A DNA stretch of 64,000 nt from assembly GCA_030622545.1 (NCBI GenBank), contig JAUXGA010000002.1:62001-126000 (forward strand). The letters run 5' to 3'. Shown here in pieces: positions 52,849-60,794 of this stretch (the stretch's first letter is position 1; each line of letters opens with the position of its first letter). This stretch comes from a bacterium (GTDB lineage Bacteria; Electryoneota; RPQS01; DYHQ01). The notes below the pieces were generated by a model. It saw only the letters and a program-made list of their open reading frames with translations. It made no database searches and was not told the DNA's origin. Made by a program: the position numbers and the translations under genes.

Positions 52849-53844
52849 TTGAGTAGAAGAATTATTCTAACGCTCTTCATTGCTATCATCGGAGCGATTT
52901 GTTTCCAAGGATGCTCCGGCAGTGATAATGGCGACGGCTCCGGAGAGTTTTGGCGGCGCTACCATGTGCTTGATTTCGGCCGGCGACCCGTTCCCTCTCC
53001 CGACGGCACGCGAGTATGTTTTGCCACGGAAGGAACCGGAGAGCATACGGCAGGAATCTATCTTCTTGAAGGAGACAGCGTTGTCCAATTAACGATGGGC
53101 ACTCCGCCTCATGCGTGGGATTATAGCTGGTCGTTGGATGGAGCGCGCATTGCTTTTTCCGCACCCGGACAAATCGGCGGCGAATCAGCGGGCATCTGGC
53201 TCATTGATGTCGAAACGCGCGAGCTCGAACAGATTTGGGATCGCGGCTCCGCGCCGAGTTGGGATCCAACAGATTCGCTGAGATTCTATTGCGCGGGGCC
53301 GGAAGACGGTACGAATAACGAAGGTATTTTTCTTATCGTGCTTGAACCCGCGCTTCGCATTCGGGTACAGTCACGCGGAACGTCGCCTGCTATGTCTCCG
53401 AATCGCCAACTATTGGGATGTCAGCTACCGGGGGAAGGCTCACAGGGGCGTGCGCTGCATGTTGCGACGCTGGACAGTCTATCCGGAATGCCGGTCGCTT
53501 CTCACACCGGAGCGTACTCGTGGGTTTGGGATTCGCAGCAGATTATCTATGAGTTTATTGAGGGAGGAGCGCTGGATATCTACGCGGTGCCGGTCAATCC
53601 TCCCGGACAATCGCAATTGCTCATCACGGGAGCGTCTTTTCCCAAAGCTTTCCCTTCGGAGAATAAAATCGTTTTTTCAAAAGTATCAGGAGCGTCAGCA
53701 GGCGGAATCTGGACGATGAGCACGCATGGGGGAGATGCACTGCCTCTGACGACAACGGGTTCAAGACCTGTCCCCACATCGGACGGAGATGCTATCTATT
53801 TCGATGACGAAGATGGAATTTATATCCTGCGCAGAGCTTCGTAA
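52849..53844 (+). CDS. TolB-like beta-propeller lipoprotein
   Basis: A 331-residue protein. The signal peptide ends in a lipobox with Cys 22 (IGAICFQGCSGSD). It is followed by repeated WD40-like/TolB blades with PSPDGTRVCFATEGTGEH, YSWSLDGARIAFSAPGQIGG, DSQQIIYEFIEGGALDIYAV and PTSDGDAIYFDDEDGIYILR (about six). It is probably a periplasmic membrane-anchored binding protein. The TTG start at 52849 follows the TldD stop by 21 bases. Whether it functions with TldD/TldE is unknown. Confidence 0.82.
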   Translation: MSRRIILTLFIAIIGAICFQGCSGSDNGDGSGEFWRRYHVLDFGRRPVPSPDGTRVCFATEGTGEHTAGIYLLEGDSVVQLTMGTPPHAWDYSWSLDGARIAFSAPGQIGGESAGIWLIDVETRELEQIWDRGSAPSWDPTDSLRFYCAGPEDGTNNEGIFLIVLEPALRIRVQSRGTSPAMSPNRQLLGCQLPGEGSQGRALHVATLDSLSGMPVASHTGAYSWVWDSQQIIYEFIEGGALDIYAVPVNPPGQSQLLITGASFPKAFPSENKIVFSKVSGASAGGIWTMSTHGGDALPLTTTGSRPVPTSDGDAIYFDDEDGIYILRRAS

Positions 53845-54005: not shown

Positions 54006-54767
54006 TCAACTTGTCAGTGTTGAGGTAGTCGTAATCGGACCTTCGGCGCGACCTTCGATGAATTGGCGGACGATGCCATTATCTGTTTCTCTGGTTTCGG
54101 CAGGCGTGCCTGAAAAAATTATTTCGCCGTCGTGAAGCATCACGATGCGATCAGATACTTTATAGACGCTGACCATATCGTGTGTAACAACGACGGTGGT
54201 GACATCCAGTTGTTCATTGAGCCGGATGATGAGATCATTAATCGCGTCGGCTGAAATCGGATCCAGCCCTGTGGTCGGTTCGTCATAGAGGACGTAGTCA
54301 GGTTTCATCGCAATCGCCCGCGCTAAGCCGACCCGTTTCTTCATCCCGCCGGATAATTCGGCGGGTTTCAAATTTTCGATGCCGGAAAGATTGACCATCG
54401 CAAGGCATTCCTTTACGCGCTTATCGATTTCGCCGCCGCTCATCGAGGAGTGTTCGCGCAGTCCAAGAGAAATGTTTTCCGCAACCATCATCGAATCGAA
54501 GAGAGCCGCACTTTGAAAAACGATTCCAAATTTCTGTCGGATTTTGTAGAGTTGTGCCTGCGAAAGGTTCCAGATGTTTTCTCCTTCGATGATAACATCC
54601 CCTGAGTCTGGCTGTAATAGGCCGATGAAATGTTTCAGCAAGACGGATTTCCCGCAGCCCGATTGCCCGATAATCGCCAGAGACTCGCCCTTGTCAATCG
54701 TGAGATTCGTCCCGCGCAGAACGGATTTATCGCCGAAAGATTTGTATAGATTTTGAACTTCAATCAT
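54006..54767 (-). CDS. mlaF: ABC transporter ATPase, MlaF-like
   Basis: A 253-residue ABC ATPase with Walker A in LAIIGQSGCGKSVLLKHFIG, the signature AELSGGMKKRVGLARAI, Walker B YVLYDEPTTGLDPISADAIN and H-loop VVVTHDMVSVYKVSD. The sequence type fits MlaF/Ttg2A, the ATPase of the phospholipid-retrograde (Mla) system. It lies 13 bases downstream of MlaE on the same strand. No MCE (MlaD) gene follows, because the next gene is convergent. Confidence 0.92.
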   Translation of the reverse strand: MIEVQNLYKSFGDKSVLRGTNLTIDKGESLAIIGQSGCGKSVLLKHFIGLLQPDSGDVIIEGENIWNLSQAQLYKIRQKFGIVFQSAALFDSMMVAENISLGLREHSSMSGGEIDKRVKECLAMVNLSGIENLKPAELSGGMKKRVGLARAIAMKPDYVLYDEPTTGLDPISADAINDLIIRLNEQLDVTTVVVTHDMVSVYKVSDRIVMLHDGEIIFSGTPAETRETDNGIVRQFIEGRAEGPITTTSTLTS

Positions 54768-54780
54768 GGCTTGTTAATCA

Positions 54781-55578
54781 TTAGAATAAGAACATCGCCA
54801 GAATATAATCGCTCATCAGAATCAGTATGCACGACCAGACGAAAGCGCGAATCGTCGCCAGTCCGACTCCTTCGGCGCCTCCTCGCGTGGAGAAGCCGAC
54901 ATGACAGCCCATCAGGGCGGTGACGGCTCCAAAAACGAACGCTTTAGCGAGCCCCGCTATCACATCATAGACATCGAAGAACACGGGGATTTGATTCCAG
55001 AACATCGCTGAGGTCATCCCAAGCAGAACGGTCGCGACGAACGATGCGCCCATCATGGCGATGAAATCCGCCAGCGTGACAAGAACCGGCAGCATCAGCA
55101 GATTGGCGTAGAAGCGCGGCACTGCCAGATAGCGGATTGGGCTGATTCCCAGTGATTCCAGCGCATCTATCTGCTCGGTGACTTTCATGGTTCCCAACTC
55201 GGCGGCGATAGAAGCGGAAACACGCCCTGCGATAATAAGCCCTGTCAGCACGGGGCCGAGCTCGATGACAATTGCTTTTAGAGTTGAAGAGCCTAAATAT
55301 TGCAAAGGAACGTAGCCCTTGAGCTGATAATTTCCCTGCCAGGCTGTTACAGCTCCTACAAAAGTCCCCACTAACAGAACGAGCGGCAGGCTGTTGAATC
55401 CCAGGCGGAGAGCCTGTTCGAAAAAGAGCTTTCTGTCTTTCCAAAGGCCCTTGATGCCGACGAGGATACGAAAGAGAAGCATCGTCGCCGCTCCGGCTTC
55501 GGCAAAAAAGTCGAGCGCGGTGCGCCCGACTTTCGCAAGGGTTTGTGAAATTGTTGGTGGAGCAACAGGCAAATTCAT
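54781..55578 (-). CDS. mlaE: MlaE-family ABC permease
   Basis: A 265-residue MlaE/Ttg2B permease with five to six membrane helices: FNSLPLVLLVGTFVGAVTAW, ELGPVLTGLIIAGRVSASIA, the family motif ELGTMKVTEQIDALESLGIS, and YAVPRFYANLLMLPVLVTL-type text (AVPRFYANLLMLPVLVTLAD). It exports or imports outer-membrane phospholipids with MlaF. Start of mlaE and end of the large outer-membrane gene are 24 bases apart, on the same strand. Confidence 0.93.
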   Translation of the reverse strand: MNLPVAPPTISQTLAKVGRTALDFFAEAGAATMLLFRILVGIKGLWKDRKLFFEQALRLGFNSLPLVLLVGTFVGAVTAWQGNYQLKGYVPLQYLGSSTLKAIVIELGPVLTGLIIAGRVSASIAAELGTMKVTEQIDALESLGISPIRYLAVPRFYANLLMLPVLVTLADFIAMMGASFVATVLLGMTSAMFWNQIPVFFDVYDVIAGLAKAFVFGAVTALMGCHVGFSTRGGAEGVGLATIRAFVWSCILILMSDYILAMFLF

Positions 55579-55602: not shown

Positions 55603-58600
55603 TTAAAATTCCGCGCCGAGAGAAAAGTAATAGCTGGGTTTCTCTGTATCAAGAAAATCCGTTCGCCATGCAACATCCCATTGCAGCAGGAAAAAACCGA
55701 GTCGCAGACGAGGACCGAAACCATAACCGACCTGCAAATCGCGCAGGCGGTGTCCGCCAGGCGTTTCTTCAGTAATTCGCAGGTTGTCGTCTTCCCAAAC
55801 AGCGCCGATGTCGGTAAAGATAGCGCCGCGGATACTTCGGAAATAGAGCGGAAGCGGCCAGCCGAACTGCAACTGCCGTATCATCGGGAAACGAAATTCC
55901 TGATTCGTCAGGAAGAAACGTGTTCCGCGCCGCTCAAAATATTTCCCTCCGCGGAAGGGGATAACAAACGATGCAAAATAGAAATCATCAATGTCTTCAA
56001 TCGGCAAGTCACCTTCATAGCGACGATTTATCCAGTTCCAGACACCACCCATGTAAAAATACTGAGGTTTCTCACCGCCGGAAAATCCTCCGGTAATTCT
56101 CGCCGCCCAACTGTAGTCGCGCCCGAGTCGCGTGTAGCGACGAAAATCCCCTTTCACAACATAGAAGCTGGATTCCCACGAGCTTTGCGATGACGAACTT
56201 GAGAGCGGGGGACTGTAGGCATAGGATATGCGATAGCGAGTACCATTGATAGGACCCGTCAAACCCCATTGAACTGTATCATGGACATAGCCAAGTCGGG
56301 GAAGGATGGTTCGTCGTTTGGAACTGTACAGGTACCTGTCAATATCAAAATTATATCGGTCGCGTTCAATGAAATGCGCAAAAACATCCATATCCACTCG
56401 GGAATACTTTGAAAAGGGATACGCCAGATAAATCCCGGTTTGAATTGTGCGATCCCGCACGCGACCGGCATCAAGGTAGTACACATTTCGGTAAAACCCG
56501 ACACCGTAGTTTATGCGCTGCGGCAGGTAGTAGTATTGTATGTGAAAATTAGTGTTGTCCAAATTGTTGAAATCATAATAGAGATCTGTATTGAGCATGA
56601 TAAGGTGATTGCCGAGAACATCCGAAAAGAGAAATTGACTGGTTCCCTGCACACCAAAGAAACTGGAATACGCGGCGGTGGCATAGACAAAATCGGGAGT
56701 CAGCTTCACGCGATAATTTTTTGCGGCAAATCCACCTCCGGGTAAACGGCTCGTGGTCGTATCCGGTTCGTCAATCTTTTCGTGCTCCAAACCTCCATGA
56801 GTTGCGAATACATAATCGGCATACGGCCGCCGGGCATGGCGTATCTCGGGCTGCGAAGAGCCGGCATTCTCTGCGGTCTCTTCGAAATCAACCGTGCCCT
56901 TCTGTCGAAACGGCGTTGGAGTCAGTTCCATCGCGGGTCTCTCCAGCGCGTTCTTCAGCATGAAAATATCATAGCCGCCATTGTTTAAGGATGTGAACAC
57001 GAGGCGACGAGTGTTGGCGGAATAGCTCGGCTGGAGGCAGCCTGTCAGGCAGTTTGTAAAAGCCTCATTCTCACCGGTCTCCAGATTCAGACGATAGAGA
57101 TTAAAAACGCCGCTCGCATCCCCGGAGTAAACGATGGTGACGCCATCCGACGCGAAAACCGGCGAGCGTTCCTGCGTTTCCGTAAATGTAAGTCGCTGAG
57201 CATCATCGTCGCCGAGATGGATTAAGTAGATGTCTTGTTGACGATAATTCATCTGATACATCTTTATCGTCTCTCGATAGTCGCGCACGCTGAGGGAATC
57301 GCGCCGGTCCGATGTGAAGAGAATCGCTTTGGAATCGGGAGCCCAAGACGGATCATCATCGGAGAAAATATCGTCCGTTACTCGATGCATCTCTCCATCT
57401 TCAAGATTGACGATATAGATATCCGAGTGACCTTCGGCAACTCCGACAAAAGCAATTTTTTCACCGTCGGGAGACCAAGCGGGCTTGAAAATCGCATCCA
57501 GATCCCAGCGAAAGCGACGGCGAACTTTGCGTTTCTTTACATCCAGCAAATAAAGCGCATCCGACTGGCCTGCTTTCGATGCGAATGTAATCATCCGACC
57601 ATCCGGCGACCATGAAATCCGCGCATCAAGCCACTTGAGTTCCTCAAAGTCCCCACTGCGCTCGCCGCGCAGAAGCCTTCGGAGCTTCTTCGTGTTCAAA
57701 TCAAGGAGATAGAGATTGAAATAGTCCGTGCGGTCCGAAAGAAACGCAATCTGTTCGCCATCCGGAGAAATGGCCGGACCGTTATTGACGAAGTTGCGCC
57801 ACTCCATATGATCAGTCAAACGCTCGGCGAATTCCTCGGACATTTTCATGTCCGCGATATGGGGCCAGTAAGCGCGTCGGAGCCATGTTTTCCACCGCTT
57901 GCTGAACTCGTCCATGTCGAGACCGATGGAGCTCTTGATAACCTTCGACAGGTCGCGGATGGAGCGCAGTTTATTCAGAATCTCGCCGACTTTTTGGGAC
58001 CCATACTTCTGGTCAATATAATACAAAACTGACTGCCCGCCTTTGTAGGCAAGATAGCCGCCTAAGTAAGGCATGTCAGGCAGGTAGCCGCTGATGGTGG
58101 CATCCCGCATAAACATATCGGACTCGGTGTCCCAGCCTTCCCGCGATTCGTATTCCGCCAGTCCTTCAATGAACCATAGTGGGAGCTGCATCATTGCCGC
58201 GCCAATGAGGATAGATTGAAAACCGGAGCCGTGGAGCATCCGCAGCATCACCGCATGAGTGAGCTCATGATGTATCACATGCCGGTAAGCTTCGAAACTT
58301 CCCTGATAGGGAATCACGACGCGGTTTTTCAGAAATTCAGTAAAACCGCCGAGCCCTTCTTCGGGAAGCGATGTCGTGACATTCGTCTGCTCGAAGTTAT
58401 TGTGCGAAACATAAGTAACGATGGTGATGCGGCTTTCCAATTTGTAATTAAAACTCCGCTGAAGTTTTTCCAGCGCGTCTTCCGCGGTTTCCGCCGTGAA
58501 CTCCGCAATCGCTTCTCCACCATCGGTAAAGTAAATATCGAAATGTTCCGACTGGATATAGCGCCACTGAAAGTCCTCGTACTGCACTTTATTCTTGCCG

Positions 58601-58662
58601 AATTGAGCGAAAGCGCTCGTGGCTGACAGCAGTAGGAGAACTCCGATGACGAAATAAAGCAT
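55603..58662 (-). CDS. Outer-membrane protein: zinc peptidase, TolB-like propeller and surface-antigen barrel
   Basis: About 1019 residues from ATG 58662 (GGAAGGGGGG upstream). A signal peptide (MLYFVIGVLLLLSATSAFA) is followed by a Peptidase_MA-like zincin domain with HHELTHAVML (HExxH, residues 132-136) and WFIEGLAEYES carrying the third ligand. A six- or seven-bladed TolB-like propeller spans about residues 290-600 (SPDGEQIAFLSDRTDYFNLY, SPDGEKIAFVGVAEGHSDIY). The C-terminal half is an Omp85/surface-antigen type barrel ending in Phe (YYFSLGAEF). The zinc site is intact. Biological role unknown; perhaps a periplasm-facing protease anchored by its own barrel. Confidence 0.85.
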   Translation of the reverse strand: MLYFVIGVLLLLSATSAFAQFGKNKVQYEDFQWRYIQSEHFDIYFTDGGEAIAEFTAETAEDALEKLQRSFNYKLESRITIVTYVSHNNFEQTNVTTSLPEEGLGGFTEFLKNRVVIPYQGSFEAYRHVIHHELTHAVMLRMLHGSGFQSILIGAAMMQLPLWFIEGLAEYESREGWDTESDMFMRDATISGYLPDMPYLGGYLAYKGGQSVLYYIDQKYGSQKVGEILNKLRSIRDLSKVIKSSIGLDMDEFSKRWKTWLRRAYWPHIADMKMSEEFAERLTDHMEWRNFVNNGPAISPDGEQIAFLSDRTDYFNLYLLDLNTKKLRRLLRGERSGDFEELKWLDARISWSPDGRMITFASKAGQSDALYLLDVKKRKVRRRFRWDLDAIFKPAWSPDGEKIAFVGVAEGHSDIYIVNLEDGEMHRVTDDIFSDDDPSWAPDSKAILFTSDRRDSLSVRDYRETIKMYQMNYRQQDIYLIHLGDDDAQRLTFTETQERSPVFASDGVTIVYSGDASGVFNLYRLNLETGENEAFTNCLTGCLQPSYSANTRRLVFTSLNNGGYDIFMLKNALERPAMELTPTPFRQKGTVDFEETAENAGSSQPEIRHARRPYADYVFATHGGLEHEKIDEPDTTTSRLPGGGFAAKNYRVKLTPDFVYATAAYSSFFGVQGTSQFLFSDVLGNHLIMLNTDLYYDFNNLDNTNFHIQYYYLPQRINYGVGFYRNVYYLDAGRVRDRTIQTGIYLAYPFSKYSRVDMDVFAHFIERDRYNFDIDRYLYSSKRRTILPRLGYVHDTVQWGLTGPINGTRYRISYAYSPPLSSSSSQSSWESSFYVVKGDFRRYTRLGRDYSWAARITGGFSGGEKPQYFYMGGVWNWINRRYEGDLPIEDIDDFYFASFVIPFRGGKYFERRGTRFFLTNQEFRFPMIRQLQFGWPLPLYFRSIRGAIFTDIGAVWEDDNLRITEETPGGHRLRDLQVGYGFGPRLRLGFFLLQWDVAWRTDFLDTEKPSYYFSLGAEF

Positions 58663-58742
58663 ACCCCCCTTCCGTCCCCCCGTAAACGGAGGGAGACTCG
58701 ACTCACCCCCTGCTTGCGGGGGGGGTAGGGGGGGTCTCTTGG
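58663..58742. repeat. GC-rich palindromic repeat in the leader of the outer-membrane gene
   Basis: Contains CCGTCCCCCCGTAAACGGAG and CCCCCTGCTTGCGGGGGG, two small hairpins in C/G-rich DNA. Read through, it would give PPLPPPQAGGESS-like text, a common artefact of this repeat type. It ends just before the start codon and supplies the purine-rich ribosome site. Bases 2690-2727 resemble it. Confidence 0.6.
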
Positions 58743-58785
58743 AACAGCAGTCTTTGATATGTCTCTTGGAAAATCTCATCATGGC

Positions 58786-60054
58786 TTAAGTATAAGCGTG
58801 CAATCCACCGAAAAAGTAATTCCCAAAGAAAGAAAGAAGAATCATGCCAAAACCGGCCAAAGAAAGAATAGCAGATTTTGTGCCTGTCCAGCCGCGCTGC
58901 AGCCGGGCATGCAGGAAGCCGGAATAGAAAAGCCAGACAATCAATGCGCCAACTTCCTTCGGATCCCATGACCAGAAAGAACCCCAGGCCTGTTCCGCCC
59001 AGATAGCCCCGGCGAAGAGGGCCCCTACTGTATAGAGCGGATAACCCAGCTTCACAGTTCCCGCCGAAATGTCATCCATAAGCCCCCGATCCAGTTTGAG
59101 CGACGCTAATCTTTTACCGCTCCGGAAAAAGCTATTCAACAGGAAGAAGCAAGGTAGCGCTAATATCCACGAAAGGCCAAAAAATTCAAAAATCCTAAAC
59201 GGGCTTCCTTGTGTTATTCCGAATATGTGTGATTTTGTAAGAATTCCCGCAAGAAGCGCACCTAAGAGAAAGCTTAGGAATGCTACGGCGGCAAGGTAAC
59301 CGCCTCCAGAGGCTTTTTCTGTGCGATTTATCCGTCGGTAAATCAGCGTCCAACCTATCGCCCCTAAGGGAGCCCCAATTCCAAAGGCGGTCAGCGCCGA
59401 ACCGATACCATTGATAGGATTCCCGCCGAGGTTAAATGTCGCGGCGCTTGCAGGGAGAGCCTGAAAGAGGGCAAGAATAAGTGCTAAACCTACGGGGAAA
59501 CCGATTCCCATCGTGAAAGCGATAGGCTTCATTTTTCCGGAAAAAGGCCCCTTTTTCGAGCTTACCATTTCAGGATCCCGTATCAGATAGAGGAAGGAGG
59601 TAACTGCGCCGACGGCAAAAGAGCCCGAAGCAATAGCCGCAAGTGTCACATGAATCGTGAGCCAATAACTCTGCAACGCCGGCATAAGCTGCATATTGAT
59701 TTCTTTCGGCAGCATAGATGCCGTGACCATCAGCATGAAGATAATCGGCGAAATCAAAGCAGCTATTTTCAGTCGGCGGTATTTCCACAGGACAATTCCC
59801 ATCATCATCGCTGCCATCCAACTCATAATCGCCAGATATTCATACATGTTCGACATGGGGTAGTGCCGGGAAATCGCCCACCGGATAAAGAACCCGACAG
59901 TCTGAGGGAGAAATCCCAATCCCGCCGCCGCCGCTCCAAACCATCCGATACGGTCTTTACCCGTTGCCAGAAAAACTGAAAACAGAGCAAAGGAAGTTAA
60001 ATAGCACCAGAATGCCCACCAGAACAGCCAAATATCAGGAGAAACCATCGTCAC
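58786..60054 (-). CDS. Cytochrome c biogenesis protein CcsA/CcsB-type (ResC-like)
   Basis: A 422-residue heme-handling membrane protein with about 10-11 helices. The WWD-type motif is WAEQAWGSFWSWDPKEVGAL, and histidines are seen in RHYPMSNMYEYLAIM and in SYWLTIHVTLAAIASGSFAV. Both mark the system II cytochrome c assembly component CcsA/ResC (or a fused form). It is the only cytochrome-assembly gene in the window, so the rest of the system is elsewhere. It ends 4 bases before a short gene-free stretch. Confidence 0.9.
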   Translation of the reverse strand: MTMVSPDIWLFWWAFWCYLTSFALFSVFLATGKDRIGWFGAAAAGLGFLPQTVGFFIRWAISRHYPMSNMYEYLAIMSWMAAMMMGIVLWKYRRLKIAALISPIIFMLMVTASMLPKEINMQLMPALQSYWLTIHVTLAAIASGSFAVGAVTSFLYLIRDPEMVSSKKGPFSGKMKPIAFTMGIGFPVGLALILALFQALPASAATFNLGGNPINGIGSALTAFGIGAPLGAIGWTLIYRRINRTEKASGGGYLAAVAFLSFLLGALLAGILTKSHIFGITQGSPFRIFEFFGLSWILALPCFFLLNSFFRSGKRLASLKLDRGLMDDISAGTVKLGYPLYTVGALFAGAIWAEQAWGSFWSWDPKEVGALIVWLFYSGFLHARLQRGWTGTKSAILSLAGFGMILLSFFGNYFFGGLHAYT

Positions 60055-60197: not shown

Positions 60198-60794
60198 TTA
60201 TTCCTCAGATTCTCCGAGGACTTCACGTACCATATCAAGGAGTTCTTCGCCCTTAATCGGCTTCGTCAGATAATTATAAGCGCCTTCCTTAATCACCTGC
60301 ACAGTGTCCTCGATTTTCGGATAACCCGTCAGAATAACAACGGTTGACTGAGGGTCTGCGGCGCGGATTTCCCGGAACACGTCAATGCCGCTTGCGCCTT
60401 TCAGTTTAACATCAAGAAACGTCAGTCCCGGCAGCTTCTCCGTGTGGAGCTTCACGGCTTCCGGACCGGTCGCCGCCGTAATCACCTCATAGCCGGCGGT
60501 CTCCAATAGCTGAGACATCACAGAGAGGATGCTCGGATCGTCATCGACGACGAGGATCATATTGCTTCGGTTACCGACATCCTGCAGCTTCTGCTTCTCG
60601 ATGTTGCGTTTTATTTCCTCGATATTCTGCTGGTCATAGAGTCTCCATCCTCTCCAGTCGCGGCGCGGACGAGTGATAGAGCCTTCGCGCTCCCATTTGA
60701 AGAGAGTCGATTTGGAGACTTGCAGATTATCGCAAACTTCCTTAGAGGAATAATATTTTTGTTCCAGCATTTTCTGCCCCGTTTGGGTAGTCAT
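60198..60794 (-). CDS. Response regulator with N-terminal MerR-like HTH and C-terminal receiver
   Basis: A 198-residue protein. Residues ~10-70 form a MerR-type winged helix (YYSSKEVCDNLQVSKSTLFK, RGWRLYDQQNIEEIKR). The receiver domain follows, with acidic pocket VVDDDPSILSVM, phospho-Asp in LTFLDVKLKGASGID, Thr in VVILTGYPKIEDTV and Lys in YNYLTKPIKGEELLD. All key residues are intact. The order DNA-binding domain first, receiver last, is the reverse of most response regulators. No kinase is next to it. Confidence 0.9.
   Translation of the reverse strand: MTTQTGQKMLEQKYYSSKEVCDNLQVSKSTLFKWEREGSITRPRRDWRGWRLYDQQNIEEIKRNIEKQKLQDVGNRSNMILVVDDDPSILSVMSQLLETAGYEVITAATGPEAVKLHTEKLPGLTFLDVKLKGASGIDVFREIRAADPQSTVVILTGYPKIEDTVQVIKEGAYNYLTKPIKGEELLDMVREVLGESEE

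Follow-up and report, generated by a model that had tools for sequence, protein, structure and literature searches.

BepA and related M48 proteases are periplasmic HExxH enzymes that act on the assembly of barrel proteins. Several families are also described in which an outer-membrane barrel of the Omp85 type is itself joined to further domains. Among the subfamilies distinguished by Heinz & Lithgow (2014; PMC4104836), the WD40-Omp85 proteins combine a propeller with the barrel and were compared to a fusion of BamA and BamB; a 'Metallo' subfamily carries PF00149, a domain different from Peptidase_MA_2, and in the accessible sections of that paper proteolytic quality control is suggested only for the PF00149-carrying group. 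In PlpD, where a lipase is fused to an Omp85 barrel, the enzyme domain is exclusively periplasmic, and the accessible part of that study makes a case for further roles of Omp85 barrels (PMC11116518). The gene described here lies on the minus strand of a bacterial contig, within a stretch of 64,000 nucleotides that was analysed as a whole and is called the window. It encodes a putative peptidase, a TolB-like propeller and an Omp85 barrel in a single chain.

The reading frame extends over 55603-58782 (minus strand; 1059 aa), and residues are numbered below from its first codon unless model residues are named. The most likely coding sequence runs from Met41 of this frame to the stop (55603-58662, minus strand), as indicated by the ORF call, Pfam, comparison with orthologues and the signal-like sequence that follows Met41. 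The in-frame 5' extension (58663-58782, minus strand), which is probably untranslated, contains a dispersed GC-rich short repeat; nine further partial copies of this element occur in the same genome (E 8.5e-8 to 0.006), and its core occurs once within the window. Because the repeat lies within the first 40 codons and a signal-like sequence, MLYFVIGVLLLLSATSAFA, opens at Met41, the true start is probably position 58662, as the initial annotation had chosen, although the open frame is longer. A probable signal peptide, recognised by eye as a hydrophobic stretch ending in AFA, occupies residues 41-59 (58606-58662, minus strand).

From the N- to the C-terminus, Pfam recognises Peptidase_MA_2 (residues 99-302; 40.3 bits against a cut-off of 32.4, E 3.8e-10), PD40 repeats in five stretches (110.1 bits, E 3.5e-32) and Omp85 (PF01103; residues 758-1059; 26.8 bits against a cut-off of 24). 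This architecture is not a product of chance, since the PD40 match is so strong and the protein is kept at full length, with 39-76% identity, across many lineages. The peptidase domain (57877-58488, minus strand) contains the HExxH motif HELTH at residues 172-176 (model residues 113-117; 58255-58269, minus strand) and, within a WxxEGxAEY sequence, Glu206 (model residue 147; 58165-58167, minus strand), which sits 30 residues past the second His of the motif. Both His residues and the Glu of HExxH, together with the downstream Glu, are invariant in two alignments. The first of these gives 80/80 sequences (79 relatives from 80 collected loci, the fragment L131 having been dropped), a count that is biased for HExxH by one of the two collecting seeds, which contains HHEL, and free of bias for the downstream Glu; the second gives 23/23 (23 of 25 orthologues, two having been dropped) and was seeded without HExxH, so that it is free of that bias altogether.

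Fold comparison was made for two AlphaFold models, the mature protein and the peptidase domain alone, with 50 rows of matches listed. For the peptidase domain (pLDDT 85.5), the strongest of the listed matches to solved structures come from the M9 collagenases (8jt1_A: Z 17.8 over 225 aligned residues, rmsd 3.1); the M30 peptidase 7bb8_A follows with Z 15.9 (231 residues, rmsd 4.1), and M1 aminopeptidases/LTA4H reach Z values of about 13-14. All of these we take to be HExxH+Glu enzymes. The Foldseek E-values for this domain are modest, the best being 1.5e-4. Motif and predicted fold (M9, M30 and M1, Z 13-18) both place the domain among the gluzincins of the peptidase MA clan, and they agree in pointing to Glu206 as the presumed third zinc ligand.

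The mature protein, modelled with 79 relatives, reached a mean pLDDT of 87.4 and a pTM of 0.86. The model consists of an alpha/beta domain up to about model residue 250, a propeller up to about model residue 551, a flexible linker at model residues 572-612 (pLDDT under 50) and 16 barrel strands at model residues 636-997, the number 16 being a hand count of DSSP strands. In the frame, the TolB-like propeller corresponds to residues 316-616 (56935-57837, minus strand), as delimited by the PD40 matches and the model, and it resembles TolB 2w8b_B with Z 27.6, rmsd 2.2 and 246 residues aligned. The barrel, delimited by Pfam and the model, corresponds to residues 695-1059 (55606-56700, minus strand) and ends in Phe; its closest fold among the matches listed is BamA of F. 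johnsoniae (9n2d_A, Z 25.4, rmsd 3.8, 312 aligned). Within it, conservation marks the sequence PFRG at residues 942-945 (55948-55959, minus strand), with P and R invariant and G at 90% or more, as a candidate counterpart of the Omp85 loop-6 RG motif; it is our assumption that this corresponds to the RG motif of BamA. The initial annotation had read all three parts as complete from the letters of the sequence, naming HELTH and the downstream Glu, the repeated propeller blades and an Omp85-like end with terminal Phe, and had called for structure prediction; Pfam, the invariant residues and the models bear out each of these parts, the barrel included.

In a barrel whose strand number is even, both ends emerge on the periplasmic side. 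With 16 modelled strands, the N-terminal domains are therefore expected in the periplasm, where those of other Omp85 proteins also lie. The periplasmic enzyme domain of PlpD offers a precedent for such a placement of the peptidase (PMC11116518, accessible part). It also weakens the thought that the barrel might export its own peptidase to the cell surface in a manner like that of type Vd systems: the fusion of an enzyme with an Omp85 barrel invites this comparison, but PlpD, the model for the idea, keeps its enzyme inside, and here a propeller intervenes between peptidase and barrel, so that a surface protease is extremely improbable. The reading that we prefer, with moderate confidence and from sequence and predicted structure, is that the fusion protein is a periplasmic zinc metalloprotease, anchored in the outer membrane, that matures or clears outer-membrane and surface proteins. 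The 16-strand barrel would serve as the outer-membrane anchor of the protein; the TolB/BamB-like propeller would lie below the barrel, where BamA has its POTRA domains, and would recruit partners or clients; and the gluzincin domain would cut clients near the membrane, either for their maturation or for the removal of stalled outer-membrane and surface proteins. Envelope quality control, the role suggested in the initial annotation and put forward in the literature for another protease-like Omp85 group (PMC4104836), is still a reasonable guess.

The fusion protein was also considered as the BamA or the TolB of the cell, and both identities were rejected. The OM_YaeT model of NCBIfam gives 12.5 of the 297.15 bits needed, and no POTRA family matched at Pfam E-values up to 0.1, a search in which BamA of the same genome gives five stretches; the TolB equivalog model of NCBIfam matches partially, with 154.1 of the 343.15 bits needed. 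Besides this separate BamA, the genome encodes one POTRA-Omp85 protein near TamB and further proteins of that kind, as well as a PlpD-like protein in which patatin and Omp85 are joined (G000:C4, L164 4528-7170). For this reason the fusion protein is not the BamA of the cell; it adds to the other Omp85 proteins of the genome and replaces none of them. Members of its family could nevertheless be assembly or insertion factors in the usual Omp85 sense, that is, a BamA-BamB-like fusion whose peptidase domain is secondary or only binds. That the barrel is closest to BamA among the matches listed, and that WD40-Omp85 proteins have been likened to a BamA-BamB fusion (PMC4104836, accessible sections), speaks for this alternative, which is still rather unlikely: the catalytic residues are invariant over deep divergence, and in the PlpD work Omp85 barrels are argued to be capable of other functions (PMC11116518, accessible part).

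On the same strand, the fusion gene is followed directly by genes for an MlaE permease (54781-55578, minus strand; TIGR00056, 218.9 bits, cut-off 212.2) and an MlaF-like ATPase (54006-54767, minus strand; best NCBIfam match MlaF PRK11831, 215.1 bits, below the cut-off of 441), with 24 bases between its stop and MlaE and 13 between MlaE and MlaF. Its upstream neighbour encodes a CcsB cytochrome c biogenesis protein (58786-60054, minus strand; TIGR03144, 210.4 bits, cut-off 187.6). Beyond these genes, the window contains at 60198-60794 a MerR-type DNA-binding domain fused to a response-regulator receiver, which is also found near the gene in related genomes at 72-86% identity, and at 52849-53844, on the opposite strand, a protein of 331 aa with weak similarity to TolB-like propellers (31.2 bits) and without a Pfam match; the two genes upstream of the latter are presumably TldE/TldD.

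Across 94 loci, MlaE lies directly downstream of the fusion gene in 20 (19 of the 83 with 1 kb of flanking sequence). CcsB lies upstream in 15 of 83 loci with 1.5 kb of flank, a GWxTD protein downstream in 20/83 (for example L097 9074-10405) and RNase R upstream in 10/83. The minimum numbers of state changes, on a tree made with FastTree only, are six for MlaE, four for CcsB and two for GWxTD. Distant clades share the arrangement CcsB-target-MlaE, which may be an old gene order that was often lost, a history to which the tree fits as well as it does to repeated gain. No constant neighbour that would name a client was found among the 94 loci. The candidate view of an MlaE-MlaF neighbourhood as a hallmark of the family was therefore rejected, given that MlaE adjoins in so few loci. 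A more specific proposal, in which barrel and propeller form the outer-membrane end of Mla-type lipid transport, draws on MlaE and MlaF directly downstream, on the recurrence of the target-MlaE order in distant clades and on the content of the genome, which has one MlaE and one MlaD found, the latter on another contig; set against the 20/94 loci, and against lipid transport giving no expectation of a peptidase, it is very improbable. Because the MlaE neighbourhood is inconstant and MlaD lies on another contig, the tie of the fusion protein to lipid transport is weak. The initial annotation had pictured a protease tethered in the outer membrane by its own barrel beside a lipid transporter. The gene order and the joining of a gluzincin-like peptidase to an Omp85 barrel hold good, and a special or constant link with mlaE-mlaF is not supported, other lineages carrying CcsB, a GWxTD protein or RNase R next to the gene.

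The distribution of the family, another point that the initial annotation had proposed to follow up, is wide. Of the 39 host-phylum genomes, 37 hold a protein of the same class as the window protein (the window class, or class 1); 38 of the 39 give a match, but that of G031 belongs to class 3, described below, and the two misses are genomes of 56% and 80% completeness. A wide scan, in which at least 566 relatives passed and 80 were kept, gave relatives, among the matches listed, in KSB1, LCP-89, Calditrichota, Ignavibacteria, Kryptonia, Neomarinimicrobiota and Delongbacteria. In a sample of 198 genomes from the phylum of an Ignavibacteriales record, which we take to be Bacteroidota, the window class is present in 102 at E-values up to 1e-100.

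The least expected result, and the most useful new lead, is the link of a distant paralogue to the type IX secretion system (T9SS). This paralogue, class 3, has the same architecture, is encoded on another contig of the genome and is 21-25% identical to the window protein (blastp). Its neighbours there (L039 7641-17999, G000 contig C11) are a C25 peptidase, PorV, a DUF5683 protein and a cargo-like FG-GAP protein whose tail is of the T9SS sorting type. The class 3 loci examined, L065-L076 and L174-L188 among them, represent 13 of 26 matches in the host phylum and 15 of 17 in other lineages, G050 and G047 being omitted for incomplete frames. In the host phylum the FG-GAP/CTD gene is adjacent in 13/13 loci, with a C25 homologue called in 12 and PorV in 11; in other lineages it is adjacent in 15/15, with PorV called in 14 and HExxH...W..EG kept in all 15. 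Overall, and over several phyla, the FG-GAP/CTD gene is adjacent in 28/28 loci and a PorV homologue is called in 25/28, a count lowered by the longest-ORF calling, which hides genes under opposite-strand ORFs (PorV is uncalled in L069 and L076), and by L185, which begins inside the cluster. The cluster typically has the order PorV, FG-GAP/CTD, paralogue, DUF5683, often with a C25 (PorU-like) gene. Elsewhere in the same genome (G000:C3, L077 5844-7822), a stand-alone Peptidase_MA_2 protein of 328 aa lies beside a PorV-like protein (25.3 bits, cut-off 27). A further class, class 2, shares 34-41% identity with the first part of the window protein, and a T9SS-type cluster was absent at the five class 2 loci examined.

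These findings raise the possibility that the whole HExxH-propeller-Omp85 family assembles, matures or clears parts of the T9SS (the giant barrel SprA, for example) or its cargo, with class 3 as a dedicated and the window protein as a general form. In addition to the class 3 clusters, the occurrence of SprA, the T9SS channel, agrees with such a role. SprA is present in the genome itself and in 35/39 genomes of the host phylum, and in 154/198 of the Bacteroidota sample; in that sample the window class is accompanied by SprA in 102/102 genomes and occurs in 0/44 SprA-negative ones, but since presence follows clades these 102 genomes stand for few independent events and the Fisher value for the co-occurrence overstates the evidence. 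A relaxed search of 77 genomes, including 20 of the 44 SprA-negative ones, found a relative in 31/52 SprA-positive genomes that lack the window class, in 1/20 SprA-negative genomes and in 5/5 positive controls. Against this, 21/52 SprA-positive genomes yielded no relative, four genomes of the host phylum without a SprA match still hold the window class, and a location of the window class in a T9SS cluster was itself considered and is not supported, 105 class 1 loci (some genomes counted twice) giving scattered weak matches alone. A T9SS-linked function for the entire family is thus possible but doubtful. It would be speculative, too, to see in the three classes an unrecognised T9SS accessory across FCB phyla, one paralogue being fixed in the PorV cluster and that of the window acting as a general maturase or clearance protease for outer-membrane proteins, needed by cells that build giant barrels of the SprA kind.

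If the preferred reading of a barrel-anchored metalloprotease is true, such a protein would bring proteolysis to the very site at which barrels and surface proteins are put together, without reliance on soluble proteases. Roughly every second genome of the Bacteroidota sample holds the family, which is probably open to tests in genetically tractable laboratory strains, and the link between the paralogue and the PorV cluster gives a direct T9SS hypothesis for phyla in which this system has been little studied.

Compared with known systems, the fusion protein shares with TolB (PDB 2w8b) the fold of the propeller, and its score lies far under the TolB equivalog cut-off. With Peptidase_MA_2 proteins (PF13485) it has in common that domain, above the cut-off, and HExxH with the downstream Glu; it differs in that most of its length lies outside the domain. 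BepA is a soluble, separate protein with TPRs, belongs to another peptidase family and is not fused to a barrel. No paper describing the order peptidase-propeller-barrel was found in a literature search that left bioRxiv and most of the subscription literature outside its scope, and within the same scope the term WD40-Omp85 was found in PMC4104836 alone; in the accessible text of a paper on the BAM complex of F. johnsoniae (PMC12611786), 'peptidase' and 'propeller' are absent at word starts. PlpD, a patatin-Omp85 protein, likewise joins an enzyme domain to an Omp85 barrel, but, as far as the accessible part of the report goes, it has a lipase and POTRA where the fusion protein has a peptidase and a propeller (PMC11116518). 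The WD40-Omp85 subfamily has in common with the fusion protein the Omp85 barrel, the N-terminal propeller most like TolB and the lack of POTRA, and the accessible sections of its description leave unmentioned the peptidase that here precedes the propeller (PMC4104836). By architecture, with a TolB-like propeller N-terminal to the barrel and no POTRA, and as distinct from a comparison of sequence clusters, the fusion protein fits this subfamily, of which its arrangement of domains is a variant.
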